Below, in pieces: positions 3,936 through 7,616 of a stretch of DNA of 64,000 bases. Positions within the stretch are counted from its first letter, which is position 1. Every line of letters starts with the position of its first letter. The stretch lies in contig NZ_CP119802.1 of the NCBI RefSeq assembly GCF_029338355.1, positions 2,418,001-2,482,000 of the forward strand, given 5' to 3'. The notes beneath the pieces are model-generated. The model did not search any database. It was given only the letters and a program-made list of their open reading frames with translations, and had not been told where the DNA came from. The translations under genes were made by a program, and so were the position numbers. Source of the DNA: Halosegnis marinus. Its GTDB lineage: Archaea; Halobacteriota; Halobacteria; Halobacteriales; Haloarculaceae.

Positions 3936-3955
3936 CTACTCCTGCGGCGAGTAGT
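3935..3955 (-). terminator. inverted repeat spanning the guaB stop codon
   Basis: ACTACTC (3935-3941) and GAGTAGT (3949-3955) form a 7-bp stem with a 7-base loop that includes the stop codon of guaB. It would place a hairpin at the very 3' end of the message; a termination or stability role is only an inference. Confidence 0.3.
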
Positions 3956-5414
3956 TGGGCGCCTCGTCGGTGATCATCACGTCGTGGGGGTGGCCCTCCG
4001 TCTGGCCGGCCGAGGAGACGCGGACGAACTCCGCGCGCTCCTTGAACCCCGGAATCGTGTCCGCGCCGACGTAGCCCATCCCCGAGCGCATCCCGCCGAC
4101 GAGCTGGTGGAGTTCGGACTCGAGCGACCCCTTGTACGGGGTGGCGGCCTCGACGCCCTCGGGGACGAAGTCCTCGTCCTCGTCGGCGTCCTTCAGGTAG
4201 CGGTCGCCGCCGCCCTCGGACATCGCGCCGACGCTGCCCATCCCGCGGTATTGCTTGTACTTCTTGCCCTGCATCGTGATGACGCGGCCGGGGGCCTCGT
4301 CGGTGCCGGCGAAGTAGGAGCCGAGCATGACGGCGTCGGCGCCCGCCGCGATGGCCTTGATGGCGTCGCCGGAGTAGCGGATGCCGCCGTCCGCGATGAC
4401 CGGCACGTCCTCGGGCGCGGCCACGTCCGCGACCTCGGAGACGGCCGTTATCTGGGGCATCCCGGCGCCCGAGACGACCCGCGTGGTACAGATGGAGCCG
4501 GGCCCGATGCCGACCTTCAGCCCGTCGGCGAAGTCGACGGCGGCTTCCGCGGCCTCGCGCGTCCCGACGTTGCCGACGACTACGTCCGCCGCCACCTCGG
4601 CCTTGATCTCCCGCGCCGAGTCGAGGACGTTGAGGTTGTGTGCGTGCGCACAGTCGATGAACAGCACGTCCGCGCCGGCCTCGTCGGCGGCGACGGCGCG
4701 GTCCGTCTCGAACGGGCCGACCGCGACCCCGACGAGGAGGCGACCCTGTTCGTCGCGGGCCGCGTCGTCGTACTCCCGGCGCGAGAGGATGCCGCGCATC
4801 GTCACGAGGCCGGTGAGCCGGTCCTCGTCGTCCACGATGGGGACGCGCTCGACCTTGTGCTCGTACATGAGTTCGAGCGCCTCGCGCGCCTCGATGCCCT
4901 CGGCCGCGGTGATGACGTCGTCGGTCATCGCGTCGCGGACGAGGTCGTCCTCGGCGATGCCGATGTACGGCCGGATGTCGGTGCCCGAGATGATGCCGAG
5001 CACCTCGTCGTCGTCGTTCACGACCGGCGCGCCGGAGACGCCCGCCCGCCCCATCAGGCGGTCGACCGCCTCGACGGTCATGTCCGGCGACGCGGTCACC
5101 ACGTCGCGGATGACGAGTTCGTCCGCGCGCTTCACCTGCTCGACGTGTGCGGCCGTCTCCTCGACGTCCATGTTCCGGTGGAGGACGCCCAGCCCGCCCT
5201 GTCGAGCCATCTCCGTCGCCAGTTCGGCCTCGGTGACGGTGTCCATCGCCGCCGAGAGCACCGGGACGTTGAGTTCGACGGTGCGCGACACGCGGGTCGC
5301 GGTGTCGGCCTCGTCCGGCTCGACGCGCGACTCCATCGGTCGCAGGAGTACGTCGTCGAACGTCAGTGCCTCCGGTACGTCGAGTTTCCGCGAGAACGGT
5401 GAGTCCTCCGCCAT
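3936..5414 (-). CDS. guaB: IMP dehydrogenase
   Basis: This enzyme oxidises IMP to XMP with NAD, the first committed step of GMP synthesis. The 492-residue protein has the N-terminal half of the TIM barrel ([13 protein letters not shown], residues 14-26), two CBS domains inserted at about 100-220, and the catalytic loop [11 protein letters not shown] with the active-site Cys at residue 309. A flap region [11 protein letters not shown] follows, and a C-terminal substrate-site segment. The start at 5414 gives the family's usual N-terminus ([10 protein letters not shown]), and a box read as GTTTTTC on the minus strand lies 27 bases upstream. The frame stays open further upstream, but that extension is not conserved-looking. 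Monocistronic. Confidence 0.96.
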
Positions 5415-5622
5415 ATAAACGGTGTGTGAGCGCGGATGAAAAACGTTCCGAGAAGGGGAAGCGCCCGTGGGACGGGGCCACGGTACACGGACACACAACC
5501 GTCCGGATTCCGGCACCGATGTGGACGTTCGTACATCGTCGTCCGGTTTCGCGTCCCGGACGCCGCCGGAGCGGCGCGAAGCCGGCCGTTCGGTCGTTCC
5601 CTGTGTCCGTATCTCACACAAC

Positions 5623-5629
5623 GCTTATA
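5623..5629 (+). promoter_or_regulatory. TATA box of the 64-residue ORF / DUF5794 unit
   Basis: GCTTATA is centred 27 bases before the ATG at 5653. It is one of the clearest TATA boxes in the window and directly abuts the palindrome at 5628-5650. Confidence 0.65.
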
Positions 5630-5650
5630 CGAAGTACGAGGTATTTCGTA
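5628..5650. promoter_or_regulatory. putative operator palindrome between TATA box and start codon
   Basis: TACGAAGTA (5628-5636) and TATTTCGTA (5642-5650) are inverted repeats with one mismatch around a CGAGG spacer. The element overlaps the 3' edge of the TATA box and reaches to 2 bases before the ATG at 5653, covering the expected transcription start. Such a position is typical for an archaeal repressor site; the regulator is not known. Confidence 0.55.
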
Positions 5651-5652
5651 GT

Positions 5653-5847
5653 ATGGACGTCGCAAGTCCCATCGCGTCGCGCCTTGCCGGCCAGACGAAC
5701 CTCTCCTCCGGCAACTCGACAAAAACAGCGATGTTCGGATTTGCGGCACGGTTCGCGTTCGACTGGCTGGGCGGACGGCTCGCGTCCGCGCTCGGCTATC
5801 GCGACGCAGACCACCCACCGGCGACGGGGTATCGCCAACACCCCTGA
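5653..5847 (+). CDS. small hypothetical protein (64 aa)
   Basis: I do not recognise this 64-residue protein. It begins MDVASPIASRLAGQTN, has a central slightly hydrophobic segment (FGFAARFAFDWLGGRLASALG, roughly residues 29-48) that could be an amphipathic helix at the membrane, and ends in a Pro/His-rich tail. Evidence that it is real: a strong TATA box at leaderless spacing, a palindrome covering the start site, and a stop codon (5845-5847) directly followed by the ATG of the DUF5794 gene, implying translational coupling. Alternative: it is a leader peptide controlling the downstream gene. Confidence 0.6.
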   Translation: MDVASPIASRLAGQTNLSSGNSTKTAMFGFAARFAFDWLGGRLASALGYRDADHPPATGYRQHP

Positions 5848-6753
5848 ATGAGCGTCTCCCAACACCCGATAGCCGCACGCCTAGAGCGACAGGTGGGCGA
5901 GGGGACGAAGCTCCTCGCCACGGTCATGGGGCTGCCGCTCGTGGACGGCATCTTCCCCGCCCTCGTGCTCGCGGGCGCGCTCTCCTCGGTTCTGGGTATC
6001 ATCGAGGTGGGACTGCTCGTCTTCGGCGGCTCCGCCACCCTCGCGGTCGTCCTCGCGGAGATGGAGGGGACCCGCCGCGAGCAGATCGGCGCGGTGCTCG
6101 TCGTCGGCGCGGGCGTGATGCTCGTCGCCGCCGTCGAGACGGCCGTCGCCCCGACCATCGAGTCGGCGCTCGACACGGCCACGTTCGAGCGGTTCGCCGC
6201 GCTCGTCATCCTCGCTATCGCCGCGAAGACCGCCTCCGCCACGGTCGGCGAGTACCTCCCTTCGCCCGGCGTCATCGTGGGGCTGGGGCTGGTCGCCTCG
6301 TTCGACCCCTCGGGCTTCCAGTTCGCGCTCATCGCGGACCCCATGGACGTGGCCCGCGGCGTCGCCGCCGCCGGCGTGGGCGTCTCCTTCGCCCTCTCGG
6401 TGGCCGTCTTCGGCCCGTGGCTCCGCGGCAACGTCGACATCGACCGCTTCCGGTTCGGGAGCGCCGTCGCGCTCGGCGTCCTCCCGCTGACCATCCTCGA
6501 CGTCATCCGGACGGACGCGCCCATCGCGCTGGCCGTCCTCGCGGTCACGTCGCTGCTCGCGCTCGACCCCGGCGGGTCGCCGGTCGCGGAGAAGGACAAC
6601 GCGTCGAGCCCCCCCGAGGCGTCGCCCGCCACCGACGGCGGCGACGGCGCTGTCGCGTCGGACGCGGAGGCCGACGAGGTGGACGACGACTACGAGGAGG
6701 AGTCGTCCGGCTCGGACCGGCGCATGGGCGGCGACCGCGCCCCGTGGCTGTGA
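5848..6753 (+). CDS. DUF5794 family multi-pass membrane protein
   Basis: This 301-residue haloarchaeal membrane protein has an N-terminal cytoplasmic stretch (SVSQHPIAARLERQVG), about seven hydrophobic segments from residue 23 to 245, and a long disordered acidic C-terminal tail (DEADEVDDDYEEESSG region). It matches the pattern I know for DUF5794. Its function is unknown. It starts immediately after the stop of the 64-residue gene with no gap, so the two are likely co-translated under the palindrome-marked promoter at 5623-5650. A zinc-ribbon gene follows on the same strand with its own box. Confidence 0.85.
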   Translation: MSVSQHPIAARLERQVGEGTKLLATVMGLPLVDGIFPALVLAGALSSVLGIIEVGLLVFGGSATLAVVLAEMEGTRREQIGAVLVVGAGVMLVAAVETAVAPTIESALDTATFERFAALVILAIAAKTASATVGEYLPSPGVIVGLGLVASFDPSGFQFALIADPMDVARGVAAAGVGVSFALSVAVFGPWLRGNVDIDRFRFGSAVALGVLPLTILDVIRTDAPIALAVLAVTSLLALDPGGSPVAEKDNASSPPEASPATDGGDGAVASDAEADEVDDDYEEESSGSDRRMGGDRAPWL

Positions 6754-6797: not shown

Positions 6798-7022
6798 ATG
6801 GCCGACAACCGTGTCGTCGAGGGGCGGATGGTGACGCCGAAGAAGCTCGCCGAACTGGTCGAGGGCGAGCGCGTGATGGACGCTGAGGGCATCGAGGACG
6901 CCGACCACGACTGCCCCGAGTGCGGCGGCGACGTCGTGAGCGTGGGCTACATGCCCTCGGTCACGGCGTTCGTCACCGGCTACAAGTGCCAGGAGTGCTC
7001 GTGGAGCGAGCGCGACGACTAA
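6798..7022 (+). CDS. DUF5795 family zinc-ribbon protein
   Basis: This 74-residue protein has a C-terminal zinc ribbon: CPEC at about residues 39-42 and CQEC at 64-67, separated by a conserved-looking VSVGYMPSVTAFVTGYK segment. It is a haloarchaeal-specific small protein of unknown function (DUF5795). A GCTTAGG box centred 28 bases upstream supports the ATG at 6798. Its stop overlaps the stop of the convergent ferredoxin-like gene (CTAA at 7019-7022). Confidence 0.85.
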   Translation: MADNRVVEGRMVTPKKLAELVEGERVMDAEGIEDADHDCPECGGDVVSVGYMPSVTAFVTGYKCQECSWSERDD

Positions 7023-7437: not shown

Positions 7438-7616
7438 GGGGCTGTGGCCAAGCCAGGCATGGCGACTGACTCCAGAGGCCACGCGCCCGGTGACGACACT
7501 CCAGACTGATATACCGAGCGGGCGACTGATCATCGCCCGTGTTGACGACCCTCTGGAGGACCGAGGCGCGCACCGGAGATATCAGTCGATCGGGGGTTCA
7601 AATCCCTCCGGCCCCA
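7438..7616 (+). tRNA. tRNA-Trp (anticodon CCA) with a 105-nt intron
   Basis: Exon 1 (7438-7475) has acceptor GGGGCTG, D stem GCCA/TGGC, anticodon stem ACTGA and loop CTCCAG. Exon 2 (7581-7616) continues with A38, TCAGT, variable CGATC, T arm GGGGG-TTCAAAT-CCCTC, acceptor CGGCCCC and discriminator A. The intron (7476-7580) interrupts the anticodon loop after position 37, the canonical site of the haloarchaeal Trp intron. Confidence 0.96.
7476..7580 (+). ncRNA. intron-encoded box C/D guide RNA of pre-tRNA-Trp
   Basis: Boxes in order: C (GTGACGA, 7490-7496), D' (CCGA, 7514-7517), a GGGCGA/TCGCCC hairpin (about 7520-7538), C' (TTGACGA, 7542-7548) and D (CCGA, 7561-7564). The guide before D' (ACTGATAT, 7505-7512) is complementary to 7579-7586; its fifth base before D' pairs with U39 (7582). 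The guide before D (CTCTGGAG, 7551-7558) is complementary to 7470-7477; its fifth base before D pairs with C34 (7472). Both predictions match the known 2'-O-methyl sites guided by the haloarchaeal Trp intron. Confidence 0.9.

Follow-up and report, generated by a model that had tools for sequence, protein, structure and literature searches.

In trp-type leader-peptide attenuators, a short translated leader and an RNA structure are placed ahead of the regulated gene. The leader described here, upstream of the haloarchaeal DUF5794 gene, differs from this arrangement in that no run of regulatory codons is discernible by eye and in that its structure begins at what is probably the 5′ terminus of the mRNA. 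Termination–reinitiation in Haloferax volcanii, in the parts of the two reports cited here (PMC6728339, PMC10666635), resembles the leader with respect to (i) the spacing of stop and start codon, which lies within −8 to +10 nt, and (ii) the delivery of ribosomes to the downstream gene by the upstream frame, as proposed for the leader. There, however, the upstream frame is an ordinary gene, whereas here it is a short leader in which conservation concerns the RNA rather than the protein. In the cited sections of PMC10666635, spacings of −8 to +10 nt are taken as predictive of reinitiation, and reinitiation measured in H. volcanii is nearly lost at about 20 nt. The fluoride riboswitch of the archaeon Thermococcus kodakarensis, in the cited portion of PMC8241225, resembles the leader in that an archaeal mRNA begins with a structured RNA and translation is the presumed level of control. 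Unlike this riboswitch, the DUF5794 leader has no Rfam match and no known ligand, and its RNA lies inside an open frame.

Within the window, by which we mean the whole 64-kb stretch of DNA that was analysed, the leader open reading frame comprises 64 codons and a stop on the forward strand (5653–5847), with its ATG at 5653 and its TGA at 5845–5847. It is preceded by the TATA-like element CTTATA (5624–5629, forward strand) and followed immediately by the ATG of the DUF5794 gene at 5848 (5848–6753, forward strand; Pfam PF19107, E 3.5e-54). An earlier reading of this DNA from its letters alone (the sequence-only reading) had named precisely these elements, a 64-residue frame, a TATA-like element and DUF5794 right after the stop, and all of them hold at these positions. 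DUF5794 occurs in 385 of 391 Halobacteria genomes, and the genome of H. volcanii carries it. Its product is probably a membrane protein and is predicted to be all-helical (AlphaFold2 model, mean pLDDT 81); comparison of the model to solved structures by Foldseek returned no relative (best E 0.56), so the target does not point to a signal. An additional, weak match to DUF5794 (G075:C2:825405-825833, E 2.6e-12) suggests a divergent paralogue in some genomes. A plasmid search with DUF5794 found one Natrinema megaplasmid, and the same search with the leader peptide gave no match.

IMP dehydrogenase is encoded divergently upstream (3936–5414, start codon at 5414) and is found in this position in 77 of the 90 loci compared below; the other 13 have no IMP dehydrogenase gene within the examined ~1 kb. 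A DUF5795 zinc-ribbon gene (PF19108, E 5e-45) follows DUF5794 at 6798–7022; it lies downstream in 63 of 90 loci and is absent mostly in the set of family f3. Both domains encoded behind the leader, PF19107 and PF19108, are domains of unknown function, and the leader peptide itself lies outside Pfam. Further downstream, the sequence at about 7440–7614 resembles an intron-containing tRNA, presumably for Trp; ARAGORN reports none there, and Rfam yields split tRNA matches of 175–181 nt downstream of DUF5794 in several relatives.

The comparison comprised 90 DUF5794 loci from 10 families (the window, 29 of the best-scoring matches and 60 loci chosen to cover further genera), and leader starts were chosen by us among the open candidates according to their place behind the promoter. 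An open frame of 47–88 codons is present just upstream of DUF5794 in every locus, so that the small frame is conserved across the class. None of its 5,873 codons is a stop, compared to 80 and 108 stops in the other two frames; frame 0 is open in 90 of 90 loci and the others in 30 and 27, where composition predicts 19.6. This difference argues for selection on translation of the leader, although the candidates from which starts were chosen were themselves open frames. The distance from the leader stop to the DUF5794 start amounts to −8 to +6 nt in 89 of the 90 loci, all of them inside the interval of −8 to +10 nt associated with termination–reinitiation, and to −38 nt in the remaining one. A tblastn search with the window's leader peptide alone found matches in only 23 of 391 genomes, and the peptide therefore diverges fast.

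Neither the purifying selection on amino acids nor the codon-position composition of an ordinary protein-coding gene is found in the leader. Its pN/pS ranges by group from 0.60 to 1.10, far above the 0.06–0.27 of DUF5794 and close to the values of the leader's other two frames, and its GC content by codon position is flat (0.62/0.62/0.70) compared to 0.73/0.47/0.88 for DUF5794. In g20, a group of eight loci from one genus, the leader changes less than DUF5794 overall and has no codon rhythm, a divergence that we read as the pattern of a conserved RNA. Taken by these measures, constraint on the leader acts much more strongly at the RNA level than at the protein level. An alternative explanation, that the frame encodes a true small protein working with the DUF5794 membrane protein while RNA pairing is secondary, would account for the frame being open in all loci, for a frame-0 pN/pS of 0.70–0.77 (0.69–1.64 in the other frames; frame 0 lowest in three of four groups), a weak remaining amino-acid signal, and for a C-terminal motif of the peptide that recurs in 58 of 90 loci. 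It would also agree with the enrichment of complex subunits among close gene overlaps stated in the cited part of PMC10666635. This explanation has to contend, however, not only with the high pN/pS and the flat codon-position composition, but also with peptide lengths of 47–88 aa, a middle part that varies freely, and the lack of Pfam matches for 10 and of NCBIfam matches for 9 leader peptides, which agrees with the sequence-only reading that the small protein has no recognisable family. We therefore regard a small protein as unlikely. The same reading had proposed a regulated unit with either a leader or a partner peptide; the leader is borne out by the open frame and the spacing of its stop, and the partner peptide is weakened by the RNA-type constraint.

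The conserved promoter feature is a TCTCACACAAC box ahead of the TATA element, represented in the window by TCTCACACAACGCTTA (5612–5627, forward strand), an upstream element/BRE that runs into the TATA element. Of the 90 loci, 88 have a box of the C[AG]CA type (CACACAA type) that starts between −41 and −36 relative to the leader ATG, 72 of them at −39, and T is the consensus at −30 to −28 in 57–93% of the 90 loci. The box pattern occurs once in the window's own genome, with two more places at one mismatch. In L084 (G021, family f5), no promoter box was recognised. Given the distance from TATA element to ATG, the leader transcript is very probably leaderless, with a predicted start that coincides with the ATG at 5653 or lies only a few bases away. 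The promoter of guaB, the IMP dehydrogenase gene, has in relatives its own conserved TCTCGCAACGTTTTT, similar to the leader's TCTCACACAACGTTTAT, and it is possible that both promoters are under a shared regulator. The guaB start region and the leader promoter also share a 17-nt match in inverted orientation, which was considered as a common promoter box and rejected, since guaB of the relatives has this element of its own; the long match is probably due to chance.

The end of CTTATA is overlapped by a palindrome, TACGAAGTA-CGAGG-TATTTCGTA (5628–5650), with 9-bp arms, one mismatch and a 5-nt spacer, whose last base lies two bases before the ATG. The sequence-only reading had seen in it an operator, and the only one of such quality in the window. 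The inverted repeat is real as such, but a search of the 64-kb window for 9-bp arms with no more than one mismatch and a spacer of 3–10 nt finds 205 distinct places, which contradicts the claim to uniqueness. By eye, none of the four congeneric loci inspected (L018, L085, L087, L098) has such a palindrome in the corresponding position, and it is hence species-specific and not retained at the promoters of these relatives as a transcription-factor operator would be. The small frame and the palindrome had been expected together beside DUF5794 in relatives, where the frame is present in 90 of 90 loci and the palindrome is missing from these four. As a conserved element, the operator was rejected on the grounds of these four loci and of the 205 places. 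That the palindrome is nevertheless a repressor operator controlling the unit agrees with its place between TATA element and start, with a site that is unique in its own genome even if 3 mismatches are allowed, and with its being one of two inverted repeats of such quality in the window that have AT-rich arms; weighed against the four congeners and the 205 equal places, we hold this to be highly improbable. The unit picked out was a real one, for partly wrong reasons, and the palindrome is a minor part of it.

The structured core of the leader RNA, which is the part matched by the covariance models R1 and R2 described below, spans 5653–5750 on the forward strand. In its main helix, about +5 to +23, within the first 25 nt, pairs with about +75 to +115. 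The helix consists of P1, in which 5659–5669 pairs with 5737–5747, and P2, in which 5670–5675 pairs with 5728–5733 (GCGATG), both from duplex prediction and the minimum free energy (MFE) fold and the former with covariation in relatives; the register of P2 is less certain than that of P1. The MFE fold further contains a hairpin P3 formed by TTGCCGG (5684–5690) and CCGGCAA (5708–5714). All strands lie on the forward strand. The window's own fold is moderately better than that of shuffled sequences (z −2.6), and consensus folding of three groups yielded z values of −3.7, −3.9 and −6.6 relative to column shuffles.

Covariation was assessed by a swap test, in which the pairing energy between +3 to +25 and +70 to +140 was calculated for a locus's own partners and for partners swapped between loci. 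Own partners pair with −22.8 kcal/mol compared to −17.3 kcal/mol for swapped ones; in 88 of 90 loci, the own energy is lower than the mean of the swapped ones (p 3e-16), and three pairs of control regions gave null results. After thinning of near-duplicates, the effect persists in 69 of 71 loci (p 3e-13, controls null), and within families it is observed in 15 of 16 (f1), 5 of 6 (f2), 13 of 19 (f3) and 17 of 19 loci (f4). Controls in the promoter, the inner leader, the later leader, the reversed strand and DUF5794 were all null. Resolved by helix, the signal is strong for P1 (p 1e-13) and P2 (p 5e-7) and weak for P3 (p 0.008). Changes on both sides of a pair were found for 4 of 17 pairs in the sequence-only alignment A1 (score 0.111; 0.051 shuffled) and for 14 of 17 pairs in alignment A2, which was fitted to model and structure (score 0.440; 0.167 shuffled). 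Covariation beyond relatedness, as expected for a conserved structured RNA, is found by the swap tests, by their thinned and within-family versions and by the pair counts. L084 has the most divergent DUF5794 (E 1.6e-20) and, at −32.0 kcal/mol, the strongest own helix of the 90 loci.

Near the DUF5794 start, a stop-anchored scan of 15-nt window pairs detected no covarying helix (nothing below p 0.001), and the fold is thus linked to the DUF5794 start codon only via the frame. Hairpins of the type CATCG..CGATG seem, by eye, to surround this start codon in f3 loci such as L071 and L062, where the window-pair scan gives no support. A hairpin at the start codon or in the 3′ part of the leader, as suggested by eye in some loci, was dropped as a candidate when the stop-anchored scan gave no signal.

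Covariance models were grown from one family because MAFFT alignments of diverse leaders left the 3′ strands unaligned. Model R1, built from 15 loci of family f3 with the window left out, finds the window's leader as the only match in its own genome (E 5e-5). Of 20 genomes, 17 have a match and three, all of f4, have none; one f3 genome has two further weak matches. Model R2 was built from 33 loci, with the window as one of its 33 rows (E 7.3e-15 for the window), and at E≤0.01, where about four chance matches are expected, it has matches in 293 of 391 genomes. The window's genus is represented by five genomes, three of which are among the 98 with no match, and in these three the leader is found once R2 is restricted to the loci (E 1.5e-4 to 3e-3). 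In a separate set of 16 named loci, which includes at least three from genomes already used, R2 places its best match correctly in 16 of 16 (E 1e-14 to 0.07). Some genomes have a second R2 match, and one weak match (E 0.0038) lies in a genome that has no DUF5794. The position of the RNA was compared with that of the DUF5794 domain match in 63 genomes, and in every one of them the RNA begins 452–516 nt ahead of this match, that is, in the 5′ leader of a gene, where a riboswitch would act in cis, and the single R1 match in the window's own genome is consistent with this placement. A conserved promoter, a structured RNA and a single copy in most genomes would also fit a small RNA acting in trans, either the leader itself or a product of its processing; in every locus and genome compared, however, the RNA adjoins DUF5794, and its frame is kept open up to the DUF5794 start codon, which makes a role in trans very unlikely.

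The RNA matches no known Rfam family: there were 0 matches at E≤5 for window 5400–6000, and when 10 of the 90 loci were searched, none of their leaders had a match at E≤1. The leader is unannotated in the one annotated record examined (Natrinema thermotolerans). Our literature search found no paper on DUF5794 and, judged by titles and the beginnings of abstracts, no such leader in work on haloarchaeal riboswitches, leader peptides, leaderless structure and small proteomes. Two sequence motifs stand out within the fold. A UUUACA-type motif, unpaired and situated before the 3′ strand of P2, occurs in the +50 to +100 stretch of 50 of 90 loci compared to 2.6 in shuffles, and an apical GGYCRGACGA occurs in 15 of the 90 loci compared to 0.02. 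Together with the one conserved gene context, they would suit a ligand-sensing riboswitch proper, in which P1, P2, P3 and the conserved unpaired bases form the aptamer and the leader frame serves as expression platform. Such a riboswitch has no known ligand, its target is a DUF gene with no solved fold relative, an Rfam match is absent, and the conserved core is modest and differs by family. This narrower form of the preferred explanation we consider rather doubtful.

The explanation that we prefer, and judge somewhat probable from comparative sequence evidence, is that the region constitutes an unannotated, structured and translated cis-acting RNA leader that gates leaderless initiation and, by termination–reinitiation, DUF5794. 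The comparison of loci shows an open frame, a conserved promoter box, a covarying helix and one copy per genome at the DUF5794 locus; start site, coupling, direction of gating and the signal that opens or closes the helix we infer as follows. Transcription would start at or near the ATG at 5653, yielding a leaderless mRNA that begins with the short open frame. In this mRNA, about +5 to +23 could pair with about +75 to +115 to give the long helix P1/P2, closing over hairpin P3 with the conserved unpaired UUUACA. Once formed, the helix would place the 5′-terminal AUG directly against it and hinder leaderless initiation. With the helix open, ribosomes would translate the leader, stop a few bases from the DUF5794 start and reinitiate there. 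Reinitiation at DUF5794 would require translation of the leader, so the frame would stay open while its codons drift and its amino acids matter little. In the cited part of PMC8241225, fusing a tetracycline riboswitch to the start of a leaderless transcript is reported to repress its translation completely in H. volcanii.

Whether read as a class-wide haloarchaeal riboswitch or as an equivalent sensor of ions or salt, a sensing function built into the frame that is translated from a leaderless mRNA is a tentative proposal that we put below even chance. If it were true, selection would hold one and the same stretch to two tasks, folding into a sensor and remaining an open frame that feeds ribosomes to a membrane-protein gene. 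According to the cited portion of PMC8241225, the fluoride element was, as of 2021, the one natural riboswitch of archaea that had been established experimentally. A structured leader that is present in most haloarchaeal genomes searched and absent from Rfam would be a ready system for studying RNA regulation of leaderless mRNAs, and it could be tested in H. volcanii, which has DUF5794 in its genome.
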